Positions 3,451 to 35,935 of a DNA stretch of 64,000 nt are shown here, piece by piece. The position numbers were made by a program, and so were the translations under genes. This DNA comes from Halobacteriovorax sp. (GTDB lineage Bacteria; Bdellovibrionota; Bacteriovoracia; Bacteriovoracales; Bacteriovoracaceae). Positions within the stretch are counted from its first letter, which is position 1. Every line of letters begins with the position of its first letter. The DNA lies in NCBI GenBank assembly GCA_002720865.1, contig PBIO01000017.1, positions 186,001-250,000 of the forward strand, in the 5' to 3' direction. The notes beneath the pieces were generated by a model. That model ran no database searches. It saw only the letters and a list, made by a program, of their open reading frames with translations, and had not been told where the DNA came from.

Positions 3451-4170
3451 CTAAGCGCCAATTTTAATGGATAGGAAACTTGTCACATTTTCGGGTAAAA
3501 AGTTCTTGGGAATATGAGAGATAATGCGTGACGCAAATTTAATTTTCTCTTCATCACAGCTTTGGTCTATCTCAAAGATGTATTCATCCTCTGCATTCAA
3601 GGGTGTTTCAACGTTTCTCTTATTAATAACATTACCTGTTCGAAGACCTTTACCATCTTCCCATTCAACAAAACTATCCATCATGATAATTTGAAATCTA
3701 GAAGTTTCATGATCATTATGCTCCCAAACAAAAACTTCAACTGGACCATCTGCCCTAAGCCAATATTTGAGATTATTAGGCATTTCAATATCAAGTCCAC
3801 TGTCATGAACAGGTCTCATACCAGCGACAATATTTTCAATGCTCAAAAATGCAGGGATCTCTTTTTGTGTAAGCTTATCATCGAAAGCTATACCTAATCT
3901 TTGGCCTTTAACCCATTTTACTGAGCCAGAAATATTAATTGAAGCTCCACGCCAATGCAGATCTCCCCCTATGGCACTGTCAGGTTTAAAATCACAACCA
4001 CCATTTTTTAGGCTAACTTGCATTCCTGTATAGCTAATATTAAGAACTTCAAAGACTTGTTCTTCACCGCTATTGGCTTTGAAGGTTAAGTAAGTGAATG
4101 GGAACCTTGGAAAGATCCTCTTTTCCGTTTCTTTGTAGTCTGTCTTAATTAAATTGAGGTGCCCTTCCAT
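3451..4170 (-). CDS. PilZ-domain protein with unknown C-terminal half
   Basis: 239 aa, no signal peptide. The N-terminal 100 residues are a PilZ domain with both c-di-GMP-contacting motifs: RxxxR as R-I-F-P-R (residues 18-22) and N-x-S-x-x-G as NISYTG (44-49), followed by VKWVKGQRLGIAF. The C-terminal 130 residues (FVWEHNDHETSRFQIIMMDSFVEWEDGKGL) match nothing I know and may be an output domain. A c-di-GMP receptor is the expected role. The gene is monocistronic; a long hairpin repeat sits 16 bp upstream of its start. Confidence 0.88.
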   Translation of the reverse strand: MEGHLNLIKTDYKETEKRIFPRFPFTYLTFKANSGEEQVFEVLNISYTGMQVSLKNGGCDFKPDSAIGGDLHWRGASINISGSVKWVKGQRLGIAFDDKLTQKEIPAFLSIENIVAGMRPVHDSGLDIEMPNNLKYWLRADGPVEVFVWEHNDHETSRFQIIMMDSFVEWEDGKGLRTGNVINKRNVETPLNAEDEYIFEIDQSCDEEKIKFASRIISHIPKNFLPENVTSFLSIKIGA

Positions 4171-4185
4171 TTTTCTTCCTTTGTT

Positions 4186-4258
4186 GGTGCCAGTTACCTT
4201 TTGGGACTCGTAGCATTATTCTCGATAATGCTTAGAGTCCCAAAAGGTAACTGGCACC
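4186..4258. repeat. 73-nt long inverted repeat (REP-like hairpin)
   Basis: Two perfectly complementary 24-nt arms, 4186-4209 and 4235-4258, begin and end with GGTGCCAG / CTGGCACC. Inside them a second, nearly perfect inverted pair (AGCATTAT / ATAATGCT) extends the stem around a TCTCG loop. It lies between the divergent PilZ and pgsA genes. There is no T-run on either side, so it is not a classical terminator. The GGTGCCA-type tip and the nested palindrome resemble REP elements mobilised by RAYT (IS200-like tyrosine) transposases; that assignment is inference. Confidence 0.8.
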
Positions 4259-4373
4259 TATAGATTACAACAGATTAGGGGTGAAGGTTAGAAGGTAAAA
4301 ATAGCTCCACAAACGCGCCGCGCACGTGTTAAAACTTGAGTAGTTCTAATTAGTTTTATGGGAATGCTGCTGC

Positions 4374-5015
4374 ATGGAAGAAAATACGGCCAATCAGGCT
4401 CAAGCGGAGACAGAATGGGAGATTGATAATCTTCCCAATAGGCTCACCCTCTTTCGAGTCGCCCTAATCCCCATTATCATCGGTAGCCTCTATTTAAATT
4501 TACTTGATTTCCCTTGGCTCTATGGAATGAAGCAAACCCTTTGTTATATCGCCGCGTGGACATTTGTAGCCGCGAGTATCACCGACTTTTTTGACGGCTA
4601 TATCGCCAGAAAAAGAAATATAGTAACTATGTTCGGCTCATTCTTAGACCCTATAGCCGATAAATTCTTAATTGTTAGCTCTCTTATTGTGCTACAGGCC
4701 CTAGAAAGAATTCCCGTGTTGGTGGTGATCATTCTAGTGTTAAGAGAAATTTACATTACAGCTCTAAGGCTTCTCGCCAGTGATAAAGGGCTCGTGGTAC
4801 CAGTAGGACAACTAGGAAAATGGAAAACGGCCTTTCAAATGTTTGGTATTGGTTTTCTCATGGCCTATGATGACCCCTATGGGATCCCAATGATCTTATT
4901 AGGAAATATTTTTATTTATTTAGCATCGATTTTTTCTATCTACTCTGCTCTTGAGTATACCTTAGGAATGTGGAGGAAGTTGAAAATTAAAAGAGAAGAA
5001 GCCCGTGGAAGATAG
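4374..5015 (+). CDS. pgsA: CDP-diacylglycerol--glycerol-3-phosphate 3-phosphatidyltransferase
   Basis: 213-aa integral membrane protein of the CDP-alcohol phosphatidyltransferase family. It opens with the family segment NLPNRLTLFRVALIPI, and the signature D-G-x2-A-R-x8-G-x3-D-x3-D is complete within residues 72-99 (FFDGYIARK ... GSFLDPIADK). Several hydrophobic helices follow. The enzyme makes phosphatidylglycerophosphate, the committed step to phosphatidylglycerol and cardiolipin. The start has only a weak ribosome site. The last 11 bp overlap serB. Confidence 0.93.
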   Translation: MEENTANQAQAETEWEIDNLPNRLTLFRVALIPIIIGSLYLNLLDFPWLYGMKQTLCYIAAWTFVAASITDFFDGYIARKRNIVTMFGSFLDPIADKFLIVSSLIVLQALERIPVLVVIILVLREIYITALRLLASDKGLVVPVGQLGKWKTAFQMFGIGFLMAYDDPYGIPMILLGNIFIYLASIFSIYSALEYTLGMWRKLKIKREEARGR

Positions 5016-6195
5016 CCAATATATTTTAGTCACTGTATCCGGACCTGATCATCCAGGTATTACCAGCATGCTTTTAGATATAATCACTCAGGCTGGAGAC
5101 GCCATTGCAGATATGGGTCAGGCCGTTACTCATGGCTTACTTTCTCTTAGCATAATGATTGAAATAAAAAGTAGAGATGAATCTGGCAACCCAGTCGTTC
5201 TAAAAGAGATGCTTTTTAGAACTTCTCAAATAGGATTAACTCTTACTTATCAGCCCATTGAAGCTAAGCAAGATGTCTTTGATAATTCAGAGAAATTCAT
5301 TCTTAATTGTGTCTCAGTAAATAATATTAGTGCCGAATTTTTAAGAGACGTCTCGGGAACCTTGGCTGATCACGATATAAATATCGTTCGCATAGATAAT
5401 ATGGAACCTGGAAGTTTTAAGGTTATGGAAATAACCACCTCCATTCCTGAAGGTTTAGACTTTAAAGGAATAAAGGCCAATCTTTACGCCCTTTCAACAC
5501 AACATAGAGTCGACGTAGCTTTTCTTAGAGATAATGTATTTAGAAGGTCTAAAAGACTTATCGTTTTTGATATGGACTCAACTCTTATTCAAACCGAGGT
5601 TATAGACGAAATGGCCGAAGTCCATGGAGTTGGTGCAGAAATAAAAGAAATAACTGAAAGAGCCATGAACGGTGAGCTCGACTTTGATGAATCTTTAATT
5701 CAAAGAGTTTCTAAACTAAAAGGATTAGAAGTCTCAAAGATGGAAGAAATACTAAAAAACCTTCCTTTCACAACAGGCTGTCAAGAATTCATAAGAACGG
5801 TAAAGTCTCTCGGTTATAAAGTAGCTATTATCTCAGGTGGCTTTAGTTTTTTTGCTAATGCTTTAAAAGATCAACTTGGAATCGATTATGCTTTTGCCAA
5901 TGAATTAGAAATCATTAATGGAAAGCTTACAGGAAATGTTGAAGGGCAAATAGTTAACGCCAATCAAAAAGCTTTTTTACTTAAAGTTTTGGCCCAGCAA
6001 GAACAAATAAACCTAGACCAAGTTGTGGCCATTGGGGACGGAGCTAATGATCTTCCTATGCTTGCCACGGCCGGGCTAGGAATCGCCTATCACGCTAAAG
6101 ATATTGTTCGAAAAACAGCTGAGCAACATATGAGCCATGGGCCTATGACGACAATTCTTTATTTCCTAGGAATTCCAAGCTCTTCTATAGTCTAA
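5005..6195 (+). CDS. serB: Phosphoserine phosphatase with two N-terminal ACT domains
   Basis: 396 aa from a GTG at 5005, inside the end of pgsA. Residues 5-85 (ILVTVSGPDHPGITSMLL) and about 95-170 form tandem ACT regulatory domains; the HAD phosphatase follows with the nucleophile motif DMDST near residue 188, the SGGFSFF motif and GDGANDLPML. The two-ACT layout is the longer SerB type, in which ACT domains sense serine. The reaction is phosphoserine to serine, the last step of serine synthesis. Serine also feeds phospholipid and sphingoid-base synthesis, so co-transcription with pgsA may be meaningful. Confidence 0.95.
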   Translation: MEDSQYILVTVSGPDHPGITSMLLDIITQAGDAIADMGQAVTHGLLSLSIMIEIKSRDESGNPVVLKEMLFRTSQIGLTLTYQPIEAKQDVFDNSEKFILNCVSVNNISAEFLRDVSGTLADHDINIVRIDNMEPGSFKVMEITTSIPEGLDFKGIKANLYALSTQHRVDVAFLRDNVFRRSKRLIVFDMDSTLIQTEVIDEMAEVHGVGAEIKEITERAMNGELDFDESLIQRVSKLKGLEVSKMEEILKNLPFTTGCQEFIRTVKSLGYKVAIISGGFSFFANALKDQLGIDYAFANELEIINGKLTGNVEGQIVNANQKAFLLKVLAQQEQINLDQVVAIGDGANDLPMLATAGLGIAYHAKDIVRKTAEQHMSHGPMTTILYFLGIPSSSIV

Positions 6196-6235
6196 GATGC
6201 TTTTCATTTTTATCCTATTGAGATAAGTTCCACTT

Positions 6236-6577
6236 ATGAGAGAGCTACTGCAATCTAAAATTCATAAAGCAACTGTAACTGAAGCAGACGTCTCTTATAT
6301 TGGCTCTGTAACCATTGATACGGACCTTCTTGATAGAATCGACTTATGGCCAGGTCAAAAAGTATTAATTGTCTCTAATACTTCTGGGGCTAGATTAGAA
6401 ACTTATGTTATTGCTGGAAACCGTGGAACTGGTGAAATTTGTATCAACGGTGCCGCTGCTCATCTTATTAAAAAAGGTGAAGAGGTGATCATCATCGGTT
6501 TTCAAGTTTCAGATAAGCCGGTTGAGCCAAAATGTATTTTAGTTGACGAAAATAATCGATTCGTAAAATATCTCTAA
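6236..6577 (+). CDS. panD: Aspartate 1-decarboxylase
   Basis: 113 aa, close to the usual 115-126. The self-cleavage site G23-S24 in IGSVTID generates the pyruvoyl cofactor; NTSGARLETYVI and the GEICINGAAAHL segment are typical. It converts aspartate to beta-alanine for pantothenate and CoA synthesis. It begins 40 bp after serB on the same strand and is probably co-transcribed. The next gene converges from the other strand with one base between them. Confidence 0.95.
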   Translation: MRELLQSKIHKATVTEADVSYIGSVTIDTDLLDRIDLWPGQKVLIVSNTSGARLETYVIAGNRGTGEICINGAAAHLIKKGEEVIIIGFQVSDKPVEPKCILVDENNRFVKYL

Positions 6578-6578
6578 C

Positions 6579-7346
6579 TTACTTTTTATTTTTTTCTTTT
6601 ATAATTTTTTCTTTGTCCGGAATAATTGAACCACATTTTCCAGTGGACTTCATAACGGCCCTTTGAACACATACTTGGTACTTTCTCATACTCTCACTTA
6701 CGTTAGAGCCTTCTTTAAGAAGCTCTTCATCACTTGGCATCTTGCAGGCCTTGGTGATGGTGCCCATACATGAATCTAACATGGCCTTGTCACTAAGTGC
6801 TCCGCCCTTTCCTTTTTTAGAACTGGGGACTGCACTCTTACAATGGGCCGGAGCTTTAGCTTCAAAAATCTCATCACATTCGATAGTAACTTCATTTCCA
6901 CAGTATTTCTTTCTAAGTTCAAAGCACTCGAACTCTTTCCCGCCCTTTGCTCCGCTTACAAAGTCATTTCCGCATGCTTTAGTCATTTCCTTTTTGTACT
7001 TAGAAGAGCAGGCCTCAAGACTTAGACCATTCTCAACACAAAGAGTATTAGTCGCTTCTTCGCACCCGACATCTTTGGATTTTGCTCTTTTTTCTGGCTT
7101 ATACATTTCTCGGCTATAGAGGAATTTATCCGCATGGACTTTACCGCAGGCCTTTACAAAGCCCTGATACTTTTTCTTTACACAGGCACCAATATTCAAA
7201 TTAGCGCTGGTACATTCGGTGTACTTAAAATAATCACAATCGCTAAGACCTTCGAGCTGATCGGCACTAATCTTGTCGTCAGCAATTGATTGTAAACTTG
7301 TGAAACAGACCATAAGCATGACCAATTTAAGCATTTTTGACTCCAT
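6579..7346 (-). CDS. Exported cysteine-rich protein of unknown function
   Basis: 255 aa with a signal peptide (hydrophobic core KLVMLMVCFTSLQSIA, cleavage near ADD). The mature chain holds many Cys in repeating C-x(5-12)-C patterns (CDYFKYTEC, CGKVH, CEEATNTLC, CSSKYKKEMTKAC, CFELRKKYC), suggesting three to four disulfide-bonded helical-hairpin units. The spacing resembles small Cys-rich proteins common in Bdellovibrio-type predators, but I recognise no named family. An ordinary monocistronic gene, convergent with panD. Confidence 0.8.
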   Translation of the reverse strand: MESKMLKLVMLMVCFTSLQSIADDKISADQLEGLSDCDYFKYTECTSANLNIGACVKKKYQGFVKACGKVHADKFLYSREMYKPEKRAKSKDVGCEEATNTLCVENGLSLEACSSKYKKEMTKACGNDFVSGAKGGKEFECFELRKKYCGNEVTIECDEIFEAKAPAHCKSAVPSSKKGKGGALSDKAMLDSCMGTITKACKMPSDEELLKEGSNVSESMRKYQVCVQRAVMKSTGKCGSIIPDKEKIIKEKNKK

Positions 7347-24964: not shown

Positions 24965-25459
24965 CTAGTCTGTGCTTGAAGAAGAGTCCTGTCTGGCCCT
25001 TCGCGCTCTTCTTATCTTACTTCGCTGTTTTTTCTTAATTCGATCTTTAGTAGAGCGTTTTTGTCGCCTTAAGGTTCTTTTTTCACGTTTTAATCTCTTA
25101 AGCTTTTTAAAACGCTTTCGCCTTTCTTCTTTAGGTAATTTTTTAAATTTTTCAAACCTTTTTAAAAGCTTAGCCTTTCTTTCAGGGCTTAGATTTTTAA
25201 ATCTTTTATGATTTTTTACTATTTTTCTTTTCTGCTCTGGGGAAAGTTTTTTAAATCTTGAAAATCTCTTCTTCAGTTTCTCTTTTTTTTCAGGATCTAA
25301 TTTTTTCCATTTCCTATAGAATTTTCGAATCTTTTGCTTTTCTGCTTTAGATAGGCTCTTCCACCTTTTGACAGAATCTTCCGTTTCCTGTGAAAAACCA
25401 AGGTTTAAGGTCGCAAAACTAAACAAGAGAACAAAGACGATCTTATAAAATGTTTTCAT
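24965..25459 (-). CDS. Exported basic repeat protein, DUF3106-like
   Basis: 164 aa with a signal peptide (IVFVLLFSFATLNLGFS). The mature part repeats a roughly 17-residue unit five times: WKSLSKAEKQKIRKF, WKKLDPEKKEKLKKR, FKKLSPEQKRKIVKN, FKNLSPERKAKLLKR, FKKLPKEERRKRFKK. This is the DUF3106 pattern. A very basic C-terminus of Arg/Lys follows. In beta-proteobacteria DUF3106 genes stand third after an ECF sigma gene and a small membrane protein; the same order with one extra gene appears here. Possibly a periplasmic chaperone or metal/stress sensor; not proven. Overlaps the upstream gene by 4 bp. Confidence 0.85.
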   Translation of the reverse strand: MKTFYKIVFVLLFSFATLNLGFSQETEDSVKRWKSLSKAEKQKIRKFYRKWKKLDPEKKEKLKKRFSRFKKLSPEQKRKIVKNHKRFKNLSPERKAKLLKRFEKFKKLPKEERRKRFKKLKRLKREKRTLRRQKRSTKDRIKKKQRSKIRRARRARQDSSSSTD

Positions 25460-26737: not shown

Positions 26738-27196
26738 ATGAAATTATCAACAATTCTAATCGCAGCCGCAACCTTATTAATAACAATATCTGCAAATGCA
26801 GATGAGCTAGATACCAGAGCTGATAAACGGCAAGTAAGACAGGCCAAGAGAATTAAGCATGGAGTAAAGAATGGAGAGCTTACAAAGAAAGAGACAAAAA
26901 CTCTTGTAAAGAATCAAAGAAGAATTAAAAGAATGGAAAAACGTTTTGAAAAAGACGGAGAGCTAACGAGAAAAGAAAAGAAGAGACTAGAAAAGGCGCA
27001 AGATAGAGCCTCTAGAAAAATATTTAAAAAGAAACATAATAAAAGAGATAGAAATAATAATAAAAGAATTAAGCAAGCTCGTAAAAAACAACAACGAATT
27101 AAAAATGCTAGAAGAAAACATAATGCACAGAAAAAGAAAAGAATTGCTCACGCCCGTCGTAAGCATAATGCAAACAACGATAGAAGAGCAGAGTAA
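26738..27196 (+). CDS. Exported very basic helical protein
   Basis: 152 aa with a signal peptide (LSTILIAAATLLITISANA). The mature chain has roughly 45% Lys/Arg, with a duplicated segment (HGVKNGELTKKETKTLVKN and FEKDGELTRKEKKRLEKA, an EF-hand-like G-E-L-T-x-K-E unit) and a tail rich in Asn, Lys, Arg and His with repeats of ARRKHNA. Divergent from the ECF sigma operon, with a candidate ECF promoter and strong ribosome site (TAGGAGACACC). The repeat G-E-L-T-K-K-E resembles proteins annotated as stress-induced, but no function is known. Confidence 0.82.
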   Translation: MKLSTILIAAATLLITISANADELDTRADKRQVRQAKRIKHGVKNGELTKKETKTLVKNQRRIKRMEKRFEKDGELTRKEKKRLEKAQDRASRKIFKKKHNKRDRNNNKRIKQARKKQQRIKNARRKHNAQKKKRIAHARRKHNANNDRRAE

Positions 27197-27213
27197 GTTT
27201 TCCCTCAAAATAA

Positions 27214-27245
27214 AAGCGGTACCTGGAGAGGGTGCCGCTTTTTTT
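27214..27245 (+). terminator. Rho-independent terminator after the basic protein gene
   Basis: AAGCGGTACC (27214-27223) pairs with GGTGCCGCTT (27231-27240), with one G-U, a 7-nt loop and a run of seven T. Confidence 0.85.
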
Positions 27246-28509
27246 AGTTAAAATCTTCTGGATTTAGATCTAATTTAACTTTTCCCGATTCAACACCGCT
27301 ATTAATAAGTTCAAAGACAGTTTTTGCATTTGCCTGAACTAGTGCGATATCTTTTTGAGAAAACTGAAGGTCAATACTTAACCAAGAGATAAACTCCGGG
27401 TTGCTTAGTAGTCCCACTAGGTTCTTTAGTCTTTCAAAACTCTCTTTTGAAAAATGTCTAATCTTTTTTAGGGCCTTATCATCTAGAGTTCTATTTCTAA
27501 AAGCAATTCCGCAGTCATTATCCTTAAGAAGCATTCTTTTTAAAACGATTGCCCCTTTTGCGTTCATGGCAGCGTCTACTTCTGGTCTGCCTTCTTTATA
27601 CTTTTTCCGAACCAGCTCTCCTGCTTCTTTGTAGTAATAGTACTTCCAGTAGTCCACATTACCGTATCTATCAAACTGCGAAAGTATTCCATCTACGATC
27701 AGCATATCGGTATAGTCTTTTAGAGCAAAGAGCTTTGGCAGGTTTGAAAAGGTTTTAGAAAACTGTTTTTCAATTCCACCGCGCTTTTTAGCCAGTTTTG
27801 CTAGGGCATGTTTTGTATAGCCACTAACGCCGCTACCGTATAAATCTCTATACAACTCTTCCCCTTTCGGGTTTTGAACAAGAGCACCATAACTCTTATC
27901 TCCATCTATATGAGTTATACGTTCTCTACCATTGTTTAACTGTTTTAAAAGAGTGCTCCAGTTCTTTGGTAACCAACCACTCATATGAGCGGTGTACTTT
28001 ACGCCTAATTCTGCCTGGGCAATATGAAAGCTCTTATCGACACTTCTTAGAACTCCTACTGGAACCTGACCAATATTAAGCAGTCTTGAGAAGTGATAAT
28101 AACCTAGAATTGAAGGTGTATAAGAACAGCTTGTTGAAACTTTATATTTAGCAAGTTTACTTCCCCGCTTTTGAACTTTCGAGCATTCTTCATTTAAGAA
28201 TTGCTCTTTTGTTAAGTCACTATCAACGGCAAAAACCTCTAGGGCCGGTGAGGTATTTTTTAATTTCGGACATACAGCTAAAGAGTATTTTACACCTTTC
28301 TTTTTATACTGAAGCTCGCTGCTATAAAAATCCATAGAACAGAGCTTTTTCTCAGCTTTTAAATCGCTTTTAGAATATTCAATTCCAAATTTTTGACCGA
28401 TTTCTGAAGTCGTCAAACAAAGTTCATTAACGCCAGTTAGAGAAGTAAACTCTGAAGCAGCTGCGACCCCAGATAAAAGTGCTATTGCTATAAAGATAAG
28501 TGTTTTCAT
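27244..28509 (-). CDS. Exported protein with FAM20/HipA-like kinase motifs
   Basis: 421 aa with a signal peptide (LIFIAIALLSGVAAA). I do not recognise the N-terminal half, which has several Cys. From residue 265 a pattern like that of secreted FAM20-type and HipA-type kinases appears: DMLIVDGILSQFDRYGN with catalytic Asp280 and Asn284, then LLKDNDCGIAF with the metal-binding D330-N331 and a downstream Phe, then a helix (IRHFSKESFERLKNL) as in FAM20C. An ATP-binding Lys cannot be assigned with certainty. If real, it is a kinase acting outside the cytoplasm. It lies 50 bp after the metallophosphoesterase gene on the same strand. Confidence 0.6.
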   Translation of the reverse strand: MKTLIFIAIALLSGVAAASEFTSLTGVNELCLTTSEIGQKFGIEYSKSDLKAEKKLCSMDFYSSELQYKKKGVKYSLAVCPKLKNTSPALEVFAVDSDLTKEQFLNEECSKVQKRGSKLAKYKVSTSCSYTPSILGYYHFSRLLNIGQVPVGVLRSVDKSFHIAQAELGVKYTAHMSGWLPKNWSTLLKQLNNGRERITHIDGDKSYGALVQNPKGEELYRDLYGSGVSGYTKHALAKLAKKRGGIEKQFSKTFSNLPKLFALKDYTDMLIVDGILSQFDRYGNVDYWKYYYYKEAGELVRKKYKEGRPEVDAAMNAKGAIVLKRMLLKDNDCGIAFRNRTLDDKALKKIRHFSKESFERLKNLVGLLSNPEFISWLSIDLQFSQKDIALVQANAKTVFELINSGVESGKVKLDLNPEDFN

Positions 28510-28511
28510 AA

Positions 28512-28536
28512 AAGGAGGAGTATCAGTCCCCTCCTT
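28512..28536 (-). promoter_or_regulatory. Hairpin containing an extended Shine-Dalgarno before the kinase-like gene
   Basis: AAGGAGG and CCTCCTT pair over 7 bp with an 11-nt loop, ending two bases from the start codon at 28509. On the minus strand the 5' arm is a perfect anti-16S sequence, but it is 20 nt from the ATG, too far unless the stem reshapes the leader. Confidence 0.5.
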
Positions 28537-28559
28537 AGAAGCCTAGGGCGTTGTAATTA

Positions 28560-29717
28560 TTACTCTCCAAGTTCCTTCTTCACGAGATCGTGACGACGAA
28601 TACTTAAATGTGAATAGGGCCTAATACGCTCTGGAAGCTTGGTTTTATCCACTTTGGTCCCATCTGAGCCATGAGCATCAAGAGTTACGTGACCGGTCTC
28701 TAAATCCACTGTAACGGCCCCATACCCCCTTGCTGAGCGGGCGGAAGTTCTTTGATCAAGGTACCTATTCCCATGTCCTAAACAAGGCATTGAAAGGATT
28801 CTAAGAGAATCTTCTAAAGCCTCATTATTATGATGAACAACCCCAGGATAATAAGCATGTGAATGCCCAAATACGGCCAAGCTTAGATCACCATCCTTAA
28901 AGATTTGCTCTAAGGAATCTGATCTTTTACCTTGCTGCTCGTTTCCAAGAAAGGCGTAGTACTTACCTCTACCGTTTTTAGAATGTTTGCTTTTAGATAA
29001 GACTGGGTAGAGTGGAACATGACCGTAAGCGATTCTGGCCACGGCCGTTCTTGCTTCCTCGGAGTTTAGCTGATTTTTTACCCACTCTCTTTGAGTTACT
29101 CCATTAACGGTTCTATCTCTTAGGGAATAAGTGCGGACATTATCCAGGGAAATAAAAAAGACGCCCTTATAAAGAAAAGAATAATAAAAAGGGTAAGCCT
29201 CAGTGGAAACCATGGTTACCCCAAGCGTTTTATCTTTCCAAAAGTCTTTATAATAACCACGCTCTCTTTCAATACTAGCATCGTGATTTCCTGGAGAGGG
29301 CGCAAAAGGAATTCCCTTTTCTTTAATAGGATTAAGAATCTTTGATTCAAAAGAGTTCCACATTTCTCTAAATCTTGAAGGTGGAAATTTCTTTTTATAA
29401 TCCTCCCCACTGGTGAAATCGCCAGTTCCGATAATGATGTCAAAACCTGATGAAAGTATATGACCCATTCCAGACTTAACCGTACTGGCGTAGTTTGGAT
29501 CTCCAAGGGACCCATTCAGGTCACCAAGAATTCCAATCTTGAGTATTCCTCTGGGAGCATTACCAGGAGGAGGAGTTGTTCCTGGTGCCGGTGTCGGCTC
29601 AGGTTTAACAATTGGCTGATTGTTATCTACATTATCAGGGAGTTGACCTTCAGCAATCTCTGCTTCGTTACATCCCAAAAGAAAAACTAATAAAAATAAA
29701 GAAAGTGTAGTGCGCAT
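28560..29717 (-). CDS. Metallophosphoesterase lipoprotein
   Basis: 385 aa with a lipobox Cys at residue 16 (FLLGC|NEA), then a Pro/Thr/Asn linker (residues 30-55). The calcineurin-like domain has all five blocks: GDLNGS in place of D-x-H (65), GTGDF (97-101), PGNHDAS (142), YGHVPLYP, and FGHSHAYYPG. In the first block the usual His is Asn (D-L-N), which occurs in some subfamilies. The substrate may be a phosphoprotein, nucleotide or lipid. It is transcribed just ahead of the kinase-like gene. Confidence 0.9.
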   Translation of the reverse strand: MRTTLSLFLLVFLLGCNEAEIAEGQLPDNVDNNQPIVKPEPTPAPGTTPPPGNAPRGILKIGILGDLNGSLGDPNYASTVKSGMGHILSSGFDIIIGTGDFTSGEDYKKKFPPSRFREMWNSFESKILNPIKEKGIPFAPSPGNHDASIERERGYYKDFWKDKTLGVTMVSTEAYPFYYSFLYKGVFFISLDNVRTYSLRDRTVNGVTQREWVKNQLNSEEARTAVARIAYGHVPLYPVLSKSKHSKNGRGKYYAFLGNEQQGKRSDSLEQIFKDGDLSLAVFGHSHAYYPGVVHHNNEALEDSLRILSMPCLGHGNRYLDQRTSARSARGYGAVTVDLETGHVTLDAHGSDGTKVDKTKLPERIRPYSHLSIRRHDLVKKELGE

Positions 29718-29960: not shown

Positions 29961-31535
29961 ATGAACAAAGTCTTAATAACCCTATTTCTAGCGATGCTCT
30001 CGATGGAGTCCTTTGGGACTTTATTAAGCCCTCGTGAGGTTATTTTTAAAACAGATAGGCAGGTTTATTCTCTTTCTAAAATTAAAGATCCAATTGAAAA
30101 AGCAGATAAGCTTCGAAGGATTCTAAACAACTTCACCAGATTTATTGTTAAAAAAGGTATTGAATACAATAATAGACTTTCTTCTGGCTCACCTTTGAGT
30201 GGAGCTCAGCTAGAAGTTCTCTATCGTTTTATCCCTACTTATAGAAATATTTTGATTCAAGCTCAAATTGATTTAAAAGCTTTAAATGAAGCAGGCCATG
30301 AAGAAAAGCTTTTGTATCTTCATAATCATTTAAAACTTCTTCAAAGTCTAAGAACTATTCATAAGGCCTATTTTAGACCAGATGAGATGAGAACTCAGAT
30401 TCATAATGCTTTTAGAAAAGCTGAGCAGAGTTCAGTAACAAGAGATGAAATCTTAAAGCTAATTAATCAAGTAGCTTCTAAAGATAATCAAGAAAATCTA
30501 AAGAAGCTTTATAGAGATCTAATTGTTAATGGGCAATCTGTAAGCAGTGAAGGTGACCAGCTAACAGAGCTTATTAAAAGAAATAGTTTAGGAGGACGGT
30601 TAGAGTCTGAAGGATATATTAATATTTGGACCTACACCTTCTTTGATGGCCTAGCGAGATTTGGAAATAATTTGGAATACATGCTTTCTAAAGGCTTTGG
30701 AAATGTCATGGGTGAAGTAAAGTTTAGAAAAGGCTTTCTCTATAAAAACACCGAGGCTCTGGCAGAATTCAAACCAAGACTTATGCCCCTTGATATCATT
30801 GTAGAAAGAAGCCCGTTCGCTCTAACAGATATGACTATCCCTGGTCATTGGACCCATCCTGCCATTTGGCTTGGGACAGAGGAGCAGCTTAAAGATCTAG
30901 GCATCTGGTATCATCCAATTTTTAAGCCTTATCAAAAGATGATTAAAGCCGGAAAAAATGTATTAGAGGCTTTAAGACCTGGGATTCAAATTAACCCCCT
31001 TGCCTCCTACTTTAATACTGATGAAATTCTTCATATGAGAGTTCCCGGTATCCTTCAGGATAAAGAGCGAATGCTGGCCGTGTACCAAAGGGCACTAGGT
31101 CATTATGGTCAAAAATATGATTTTAATTTTGATGCCGCCTCTACTGATGTTATTGTCTGTAGCGAACTAATTTTTCAGGCCTTTGGAAATATCAACTGGC
31201 CTGCTGATAAGGTCCTAGGTCGTCACTCCATTACCCCAGATAATATTGTTGAAATCATCTTTTATGAGGACTCTCCAGTTGAATTCGTTTCAATCTTCGG
31301 CGTAAACGAGCAAAAGTCCATGTATGAACTTGATAAGGACGAGATGATGCATATGATGGGCTTTAGCCTCGACAAGTCAAAGACTCTTGAAGACGGTGAG
31401 AAGCGCTACAATAAAGAAGTAACTGAATGTAAAATTAAATCTTCCCGAGTAAGAGTGGGAAGTAGAAGGGAAAAAAGGCTTAAGATTAACAAGTGCGACC
31501 AAGTTCTTAAGCCTGCGGTTTATAAAAGTCTTTAA
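29961..31535 (+). CDS. Exported YiiX/YebB-type permuted papain-like amidase (C92-like)
   Basis: 524 aa with a signal peptide (VLITLFLAMLSMESFGT). The first 270 residues are helical and unassigned. The catalytic domain starts near 275 (LMPLDIIVERSPFALTD), with His in GHWTHPAIWLG (about 296-299) and the nucleophile Cys in DVIVCSELIFQAFG (about 399), in the circularly permuted order of NlpC/P60-related YiiX proteins. Family members cleave amide bonds in lipids or peptidoglycan-linked substrates. It ends in a basic tail and overlaps the convergent lipoprotein gene by 4 bp. Confidence 0.85.
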   Translation: MNKVLITLFLAMLSMESFGTLLSPREVIFKTDRQVYSLSKIKDPIEKADKLRRILNNFTRFIVKKGIEYNNRLSSGSPLSGAQLEVLYRFIPTYRNILIQAQIDLKALNEAGHEEKLLYLHNHLKLLQSLRTIHKAYFRPDEMRTQIHNAFRKAEQSSVTRDEILKLINQVASKDNQENLKKLYRDLIVNGQSVSSEGDQLTELIKRNSLGGRLESEGYINIWTYTFFDGLARFGNNLEYMLSKGFGNVMGEVKFRKGFLYKNTEALAEFKPRLMPLDIIVERSPFALTDMTIPGHWTHPAIWLGTEEQLKDLGIWYHPIFKPYQKMIKAGKNVLEALRPGIQINPLASYFNTDEILHMRVPGILQDKERMLAVYQRALGHYGQKYDFNFDAASTDVIVCSELIFQAFGNINWPADKVLGRHSITPDNIVEIIFYEDSPVEFVSIFGVNEQKSMYELDKDEMMHMMGFSLDKSKTLEDGEKRYNKEVTECKIKSSRVRVGSRREKRLKINKCDQVLKPAVYKSL

Positions 31536-33721: not shown

Positions 33722-35935
33722 ATGAAATTATTATTAATTCCTTTTCTAATGCTTGCATTTTCTTTTAACGCTTTTGCAGACGGTCAGCCAGACTTTAGAA
33801 AGCTTCAAGAGATCGCTCGTATTATTCACTCAGAGAACACGTCTTACAGGACTGACAAAGGGTGGGAGAAGATTACTGAACTGATGAATCAAGTTGAAAT
33901 TTTTGACGAGTCAGTTAAAAGAATGATGAGCACATTTTGCTCAGATGAACCAAACAAGTCGGTTCTAATTGTTGGTGAGCCAAGTGATACTTTTAAGTAT
34001 CTATTTGCTCGTCTTGCTAAAATGAGTCCAGAAGAAGGCTGTAAGCGTCTATCTCATATGGACCTTATCACGGCCAAGCTACAAGGTTATATGTACGTTG
34101 GTACAACTGAAAGAAACTGGCGCGATTTTATTGAAAAGCCTGCTTACAATAAAGACGTTGTTCTTTATGTAAATAACCTGGCACTTCTAATTGGTATCGG
34201 TACAAGTATGAACCGCGATGTGGGGATTGAGTCTACTTATATCAACGCCGTAAAAACTGGTCAGTTAAAGTCTGTGGCTTTCCTTAATAAGTACGATTAC
34301 AAAAGACTTATTCACGGAAGACATGCTTACGTTTTAAATGGTTTCCAAGAAACTATTAATGTTGATGATCTAAAGATGGCACAAGTTGATAAGCTTGTTC
34401 GTACTTACCTTGACCTTAATGCTCCTCATATTAAGATGAGTGATAAGGTGGCTAATTTTATGTACAGAAATATTCAGTACTATCAGCCAAACCTAATGGA
34501 GCCACAAAGAACAATGAATGTTGTTCTGTCTTTGATTCGTCAAAACCCGACTAAAACAACTCGTTTTAGAACTGATGTAAAGTCTCCTAATCCATATGGA
34601 GCAAACATCAAAGAAGAGTATATTATTGATCGTCCAGATGCGGTTGCTATGGGTCTGAACTTTGAATATTTTATGACTGAAGCAAATCGCGACCGTCTTA
34701 GAATTTATGACTTTCATACAAATGAGCTTCTTCAAACCATGACTGGAAAGCTTGGTGCTGTTAGATCAAATAACTTTGAAACTAATAAGCTAAGACTTGA
34801 ATTTACTTCTGATGGGTCTGTTCAAGACAAAGGTTTCAAAATTGATGCGATTGTTGAGCAAAAAACTGAGGACGTGGTTCTTACTGTTGAGCAAGTTCGT
34901 AAGGCCATTATGGAAATGGTTCAAGTTCCAGACTGGATCATCAAAAGAGATTACCAGGTAGTAAGAAACCTTCCAGCGATGCTTGAAGAAGATGTTGTTG
35001 GTATTCATATGGCCAAAAAAGCCGTTATCAAGGCCTTCAAAGTTGGTTATGTTGCTGGTCGTACTGATGAAAAACCAGCTGGAGCTCTAATGCTTGTAGG
35101 TCCTACTGGTACTGGTAAGTCTTACATCGCTAAGAAAGCTGCTGAGTTCATGGATATGAAGCTAGTTACTCTAGACATGACTCAATATGCGACTCCAGAG
35201 TCTTTTGATAGATTCCTAGAGACTGTAGCTAATAACCTTATCCTTTATCCATATGCTGTTTATCTTTTTGAAGAAATCGACAAGGCCGACACTCGTGTTC
35301 TTGATCGTCTTTACTTCATGATGGACGAAGGGATTTTCTACGATAAAAACCAAAGACCACTTTTTGCTAGAGGATCAATGGTAATGATGACGACCAACGC
35401 TGGTCACGATCTGATTATCCGCGAAAGAAACAATCCAAACCTTCAAAGACTTGTTAACGAAGAACTTCAGAAATTCTATCGTCCAAGTTTTCTAAACCGT
35501 TTTGACAGTATTCCAATTTTTCTTCCTTTTTCTAAAGAAGAATTTCATCAGTTAGCGACAATTATGACGATGAAAAAAGTTAAGAAAATGAAAGAGTATT
35601 TTGACTGGAATGCAACTGTAGACGAAGAAGTTATTCGTTTTATGGGAGAAAATGGTGGTTCAGATCTTTACGGTGCTCGTCCAATGGAAAGAATGGTTGA
35701 GAACGTAATTTCTGTTGGTATCTCTGAATACCAAATCCAAAGAGGAACTATTGAATTTGGTGACTCATTTAAGATTTCAAAAGTTCGCGGAGAAAAACTT
35801 AAGTTTAAGATTTCTGTGAATGGTCGTGGTGGTGTTAACTACGAAGTAGACATGGATAATAACTCCGGTCTTATTGATTTCTCAGCTACGTTCCCTGAAC
35901 TAGCGAAGCTTTTCCAAGAAAACAGAATGTACTAA
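33722..35935 (+). CDS. Exported Clp/Hsp100-type AAA+ ATPase with degenerate first domain
   Basis: 737 aa. The N-terminus LLLIPFLMLAFSFNAFA|DG is a textbook Sec signal peptide, with an excellent ribosome site (AGGAGAAAGAG). Residues 75-200 follow the Clp D1 plan but with lost motifs: VLIVGEPSDTFKYLF replaces Walker A and VVLYVNNLALLIGIGTS replaces Walker B. D2 is largely intact: Walker A GPTGTGKS (460-467), Walker B YLFEEIDKA (Glu for the usual Asp), sensor-1 TTNAG, an Arg finger in FLNRFDS, and sensor-2 YGARPMERM. There is no ClpP loop. Codons are of the highly expressed type (frequent CGT, GTT). An Hsp100 outside the cytoplasm is unexpected. Confidence 0.85.
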   Translation: MKLLLIPFLMLAFSFNAFADGQPDFRKLQEIARIIHSENTSYRTDKGWEKITELMNQVEIFDESVKRMMSTFCSDEPNKSVLIVGEPSDTFKYLFARLAKMSPEEGCKRLSHMDLITAKLQGYMYVGTTERNWRDFIEKPAYNKDVVLYVNNLALLIGIGTSMNRDVGIESTYINAVKTGQLKSVAFLNKYDYKRLIHGRHAYVLNGFQETINVDDLKMAQVDKLVRTYLDLNAPHIKMSDKVANFMYRNIQYYQPNLMEPQRTMNVVLSLIRQNPTKTTRFRTDVKSPNPYGANIKEEYIIDRPDAVAMGLNFEYFMTEANRDRLRIYDFHTNELLQTMTGKLGAVRSNNFETNKLRLEFTSDGSVQDKGFKIDAIVEQKTEDVVLTVEQVRKAIMEMVQVPDWIIKRDYQVVRNLPAMLEEDVVGIHMAKKAVIKAFKVGYVAGRTDEKPAGALMLVGPTGTGKSYIAKKAAEFMDMKLVTLDMTQYATPESFDRFLETVANNLILYPYAVYLFEEIDKADTRVLDRLYFMMDEGIFYDKNQRPLFARGSMVMMTTNAGHDLIIRERNNPNLQRLVNEELQKFYRPSFLNRFDSIPIFLPFSKEEFHQLATIMTMKKVKKMKEYFDWNATVDEEVIRFMGENGGSDLYGARPMERMVENVISVGISEYQIQRGTIEFGDSFKISKVRGEKLKFKISVNGRGGVNYEVDMDNNSGLIDFSATFPELAKLFQENRMY

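Follow-up and report, generated by a model that had tools for sequence, protein, structure and literature searches.

An exported protein of 421 amino acids is encoded next to a metallophosphoesterase lipoprotein in the genome of a Halobacteriovorax sp., and an earlier note had proposed, from motifs reminiscent of FAM20C and HipA kinases, that the two form a kinase/phosphatase pair acting outside the cytoplasm. The locus raises the question of whether the first protein is a kinase and the second its partner. Coordinates given here refer to the window, that is, the whole stretch of 64,000 nucleotides that was analysed. The reading frame of the 421-aa protein starts with ATG and spans 27244..28509 on the minus strand. 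Its first residues, about 1-19 (MKTLIFIAIALLSGVAAAS; 28453..28509, minus strand), are predicted to form a signal peptide, and a simple composition test finds a hydrophobic N-terminal stretch in 134 of 141 homologues. A stem-loop at 27212..27242, beyond the end of the gene, is called as a terminator on the plus strand; being T-rich on the minus strand too, it probably serves both.

No model of Pfam, NCBIfam or PADLOC matches the protein or its relatives (59 members were scanned in Pfam and NCBIfam), so the family is invisible to routine annotation, and a single-sequence search of the PDB gave nothing useful. Among these 59 members there was no match to PF06702 (Fam20C), to the HipA models or to the PI3_PI4_kinase model of Pfam. 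In 191 genomes of the phylum, PF06702 is nowhere above its cut-off; the Fam20C matches there all lie under it and none belongs to the present family. PF08757 (CotH) was matched neither in the Pfam scans nor anywhere in the whole genome of the window, and no HipB-like gene adjoins the kinase-like gene in the window. An NCBIfam match to aureocin_A53 (E 0.0042, below cut-off), covering residues 376-406 in one of the 59 members, was taken as chance.

The AF2 model, built for the window protein with 58 relatives, reaches a pLDDT of 84.6 and a pTM of 0.84 and is weak only at residues 222-254. A Foldseek search of the PDB with this model returned three matches with E < 0.001, all of them chains of DrFam20C1 (zebrafish FAM20C; best E 7.7e-6, prob 1.00), followed by CtkA at E 0.011. 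In VIA-align, nine FAM20 entries rank at the top (Z 15.8-18.0, rmsd 3.8-4.7 over 261-278 residues) and PI4K-II comes second (Z 13.7-15.4), with CtkA (Z 11.3-11.7), HipT/HipA (Z about 9-11) and CotH (Z 10.0-10.1) lower down. These predictions support a kinase fold whose closest solved structures are the FAM20 kinases. The kinase-like resemblance claimed earlier was thus borne out, and an unrelated fold was not seen. Likeness to FAM20 in sequence is merely suggestive: FAM20C appears in the profile search at E 1.7, below significance, through two collinear stretches, a VPP helix and the DVMDMTIFDFLMGNMDR loop, and profile-profile comparison places family positions 265-281 on DVMDMTIFDFLMGNMDR of FAM20C with 41% identity over 17 columns, a weak match (Prob 17). 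Phosphorylase kinase, found by profile at E 0.0028, was discarded as support because the alignment sets C-terminal helices (profile 400-467) on another part of that kinase and misses the catalytic motif.

Conservation was counted in an alignment of 141 homologues from which duplicates had been removed. The putative catalytic loop D280-R281-Y-G-N284 (27658..27672, minus strand) retains D in 140/140, R in 140/140 and N in 139/140 sequences, and the DFG-like D330-N331-D332 (27514..27522, minus strand), presumably metal-binding, is kept in 140/140, 139/140 and 140/140. The motif FDRYGN lies at residues 279-284, not 280-284 as previously given, and KDNDCGIAF at 329-337, one less than 330-338; the residue numbers D280, N284 and D330 were correct all the same, and their expected conservation in homologues was found. 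For the ATP lysine, which could not be assigned before, two candidates can now be proposed, Lys82 in the N-lobe (28264..28266, minus strand) and Lys123 in LAKYK at the end of a predicted strand 117-123 (28141..28143, minus strand), each present in 139/139 homologues. We propose K123 as the ATP lysine, with the pocket geometry inferred, and K82 as one of two phosphate-binding lysines, a role inferred from the likeness to FAM20C. D273 (140/140) and D414 (139/139) are also kept. This degree of invariance is expected of an active site that is being maintained, and it places the motifs beyond chance. Coincidental motif likeness in a protein unrelated to kinases, a reading to which the missing Pfam and NCBIfam matches and the weak sequence comparison with FAM20 might point, is hardly credible given this invariance and the fold match.

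With the FAM20 kinases the family has in common an exported or secretory kinase fold, the DR loop, a DNx(x)G metal motif and disulfides. D280 would correspond to Asp458 of FAM20C by the profile alignment of the DR, and D330 to Asp478, where FAM20C carries DNGRGFG, by the DN..G motif and its order only; the two critical lysines of FAM20C may correspond to K82 and K123. However, the present family is bacterial, has a D-R-x-G-N loop in place of D-R-H-H-Y-E, carries an insertion of about 30 residues between the two aspartates and has its own phosphatase gene. It also has no conserved equivalent of Glu306, which FAM20C requires for activity and whose loss helps to make FAM20A a pseudokinase (PMC5865150). 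In the alignment of 141 homologues, no acidic column occurs in the loop and helix after K123, and the positions of Glu306 and Glu311 of FAM20C are non-acidic: S129 and I134, in the register of the profile alignment to FAM20C, are mostly T/S/V and S/I/P/A in the family. Either another acid substitutes, such as E29 or E53 (each more than 96% conserved), or the chemistry differs.

The cysteines bear on location. C31 and C57 are jointly missing in seven sequences of the alignment, C80 and C109 in L062, and C406 and the C-terminal cysteine in L040 (the window protein), L041, L048, L089 and L181; the sequence of L042 is truncated by the end of its contig. Pairwise loss implies three disulfides in the family and thus an oxidising compartment, an inference from sequence. 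FAM20 has four disulfides (PMC5865150), and the three inferred here follow a pattern of their own.

The neighbouring gene (28560..29717, minus strand) encodes a 385-aa metallophosphoesterase that matches PF00149 with E 3.3e-14 (54.2 bits against a cut-off of 21.5). Its N-terminus, MRTTLSLFLLVFLLGC, fits a lipobox, LLGC at 29670..29681 (minus strand). It lies upstream of the kinase-like gene on the same strand with a gap of 50 bp (28510..28559, minus strand) between its stop and the next start. The reading frames and PF00149 thus confirm the exported protein and the calcineurin-like lipobox phosphatase as first described, with the same spacing. A gap of about 50 bp also separates the two genes in G037 and G038. 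The metal-ligand motifs GD, GNHD, H and GHxH are kept, and D66, N68, D100, N144, H145, H233, H285 and H287 are invariant in the phosphatase alignment. By profile, the nearest solved relatives are purple acid phosphatases, 6git, a wheat enzyme (E 4.7e-12), and TRAP/ACP5 (1ute, E 1.5e-8), with which the partner has the metallophosphoesterase core in common. However, the metal-ligand tyrosine of GDxxY is not conserved in the alignment, which reads GD-F/M-x-x-G, and motif I is D-x-N, so by its ligand set the partner is not a proper purple acid phosphatase; in the window it is also a lipoprotein.

The kinase family was traced in steps. A single sequence finds relatives in 7 of 129 genomes of the window's own order, and a profile of these order-level relatives finds the kinase in 56 of 368 genomes of the phylum. 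The single window protein recovered no relative from the genome contig collection; a tighter alignment gave 115 confirmed places there, of which 80 were kept. Hosts belong to several bacterial phyla and include Bdellovibrionales, Ruegeria and other Rhodobacteraceae, Thiothrix and other Gammaproteobacteria, Desulfobulbaceae, Thermoanaerobaculia, an Aquificaceae MAG and others. No homologue of a Ruegeria member was found on plasmids. Ten apparent second copies of the kinase proved to be DUF2252-type proteins, which form another kinase-fold family and were miscounted through single-linkage merging, probably by way of a natural 823-aa kinase-DUF2252 fusion at L090:5202-7673 (minus strand). About ten other kinase loci have separate DUF2252-type genes close by, and DUF2252 is listed in the kinase clan (PMC9758233).

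The phosphatase adjoins the kinase in 17 of 68 family members of the phylum (13 with the window's arrangement, in which it lies upstream and on the kinase strand, and two divergent) and in 62 of the 80 loci of the contig collection. In 52 of these 62 the reading frames overlap with the phosphatase downstream, although the lengths of overlap hinge on the choice of start. The two genes occur together repeatedly in Bdellovibrionota, Rhodobacteraceae, Gammaproteobacteria and Desulfobulbaceae, arranged in three different orders, from which it follows that the arrangement changed while the partnership stayed. It is not obligatory, since 51 of the 68 members in the phylum lack an adjacent phosphatase. 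Of the 31 genomes that encode this phosphatase subfamily, 20 also encode the kinase, against 56 of 368 overall (Fisher p 4e-11, uncorrected for kinship), and the distance matrices of the two proteins correlate with r 0.86, a value reached in 0 of 2000 permutations.

Another exported protein, with a DSP fold, adjoins the kinase in about 50 loci (for example L047:5125-5904, minus strand, and L113:4265-4909, plus strand) and is nearly blank in Pfam. Its best matches include DUSP23 (Z 13.5); Siw14, titled a PP-IP phosphatase, and AtPFA-DSP1 are among the top, with DUSP23 above Siw14. In its P-loop, HCxxGxH[A/S]SG, the catalytic arginine is replaced and a histidine is invariant, so that it fails the HCX5R criterion. 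Of the 48 genomes encoding this protein, 34 encode the kinase too (p 3e-22, kinship ignored). The window's genome lacks the DSP-fold protein. Kinase loci of Rhodobacteraceae also carry DUF4956 and a phytase-like/SdiA-regulated propeller, and those of Bdellovibrionota a VTC-OEP-HlyD-DUF4956 cluster. In the window's genome the VTC-DUF4956 cluster lies on another contig, away from the kinase (L197:7454-11935, C31), and contains DUF4956, an HlyD/phytase-like fusion, an outer-membrane-efflux-like protein and VTC, the same genes that are found around the kinase in relatives from the Bdellovibrionota. Beside it are two exported paralogues of about 1147 aa without Pfam assignment (L197:258-3698, minus strand, and 3900-7346, plus strand). 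Their kinase-like series KTQSKPK..., IHSEGT... and HDIGFSFG may represent another atypical kinase family.

Several other features of the surroundings were observed. In Bdellovibrionota, up to four genes (single-linkage groups c19-c22) form a conserved block upstream of the kinase in L071, L073, L075, L076 and L094-L096. Close to the kinase in the window, a sigma factor gene is flanked by two genes for small, exported, highly basic proteins (24965-25459, minus strand, and 26738-27196, plus strand), DUF3106-like and with a Lys/Arg-rich repeat. Divergent from the phosphatase lies a gene (29961-31535, plus strand) whose product is exported and contains a YiiX/C92 peptidase domain of the permuted papain-like type, and a gene of similar size and orientation takes this position in G037 and G038. 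A 737-aa protein (33722-35935, plus strand) combines a signal-peptide-like start with an apparent AAA+ ATPase domain of the ClpA/ClpB type, an export-like start being unusual for an ATP-dependent machine.

The reading that we favour, with reasonable though not high confidence, is that of an exported kinase with a purple-acid-phosphatase-like partner; the activity, the donor and acceptor of the phosphate, and the opposed action of the two enzymes are inferred. The proposed pair outside the cytoplasm is supported to this extent, by the kinase fold and by recurrent pairing in distant bacteria. The 421-aa protein would be a disulfide-stabilised kinase whose bacterial family, as yet without a name, belongs to the FAM20/PI4K-II branch of the atypical kinases. 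It would most likely use a nucleotide to phosphorylate a substrate located in the periplasm or outside the cell. D280 would act as catalytic base, N284 and D330/D332 would hold metals, and K82 and K123 would hold phosphates, while the lipoprotein would most likely remove that phosphate or a similar phosphomonoester. However, ATP is not known to be abundant in the periplasm, which leaves the donor unexplained and counts against this reading. It is also conceivable that the protein is a pseudokinase, or catalyses another reaction such as AMP transfer, and that it regulates the neighbouring phosphatases or acts as their scaffold. Some kinase-fold proteins AMPylate or glutamylate, the positions of Glu306 and Glu311 are non-acidic, and the neighbouring DSP-like protein itself lacks its P-loop arginine. 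Nevertheless, we regard this as unlikely, as both aspartates, the asparagine and the two lysines are essentially invariant in 141 sequences, unlike in a decayed active site.

What an exported kinase would phosphorylate is a separate matter. FAM20B, from which the other FAM20 kinases are proposed to descend, phosphorylates xylose (PMC7948968), and PI4K-II, the second-best fold, acts on lipids; a protein substrate is therefore not to be assumed. PI4K-II itself is an intracellular membrane enzyme without export signal and without a sequence match to the family. The target might be a small molecule or glycan, such as an inositol phosphate, a polyphosphate-linked compound, a lipid or an envelope sugar, with the neighbours as members of a pathway for phosphomonoesters in the periplasm; such a scheme would narrow the exported-kinase reading and is compatible with it. 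The plant enzyme nearest to the partner, the recurrent phytase-like/SdiA-regulated propellers, VTC and DUF4956 neighbours, and the matches of the DSP-fold protein to Siw14 and AtPFA-DSP1 all point this way. However, every one of these hints is indirect, DUSP23 outranks Siw14, and clusters of VTC and DUF4956 also occur with CotH, a protein kinase, so that we hold such a target for a real possibility, somewhat short of an even chance.

Returning to the exported kinase and its phosphatase, bacterial FAM20-related kinases as such are already known. CotH acts on spore coats. Like the present family, which in several lineages has VTC and DUF4956 as neighbours, it is a bacterial FAM20 relative. Nevertheless, CotH is matched at a VIA-align Z of only 10 against 18 for FAM20, and the present family adds an export signal and a phosphatase partner; it also keeps a DND metal motif, whereas CotH is reported to lack the DFG motif (PMC12189002). 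HipA/HipT and CtkA have the kinase fold and D...N...D motifs in common with the family at lower similarity (Z 9-12). CotH and four Legionella families cluster with FAM20 (PMC9758233), whose kinases have been described as animal-specific (PMC7948968, PMC9758233). Since clusters of CotH, polyphosphate polymerase and DUF4956 occur in Gram-positives (PMC7112168), it is possible, by analogy of the neighbours, that the new family fills the place of CotH in Gram-negatives. A literature search found no paper on the family, most subscription journals and preprints being outside its coverage.

A wider picture, which we consider rather doubtful at present, is a reversible extracytoplasmic phosphorylation system of Gram-negatives that joins FAM20 relatives, a purple-acid-phosphatase-like eraser and an altered DSP, is tied in some lineages to polyphosphate-type clusters of VTC and DUF4956 and would point to a bacterial root of FAM20. 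If true, its kinases would be the nearest relatives of animal FAM20 yet recognised in bacteria. A widespread bacterial family of exported kinases, accompanied by a linked phosphatase and closer in structure to FAM20 than to CotH, would open envelope phosphorylation of Gram-negatives to direct test; it would also raise the question of a nucleotide source outside the cytoplasm and have a bearing on the origin of FAM20.
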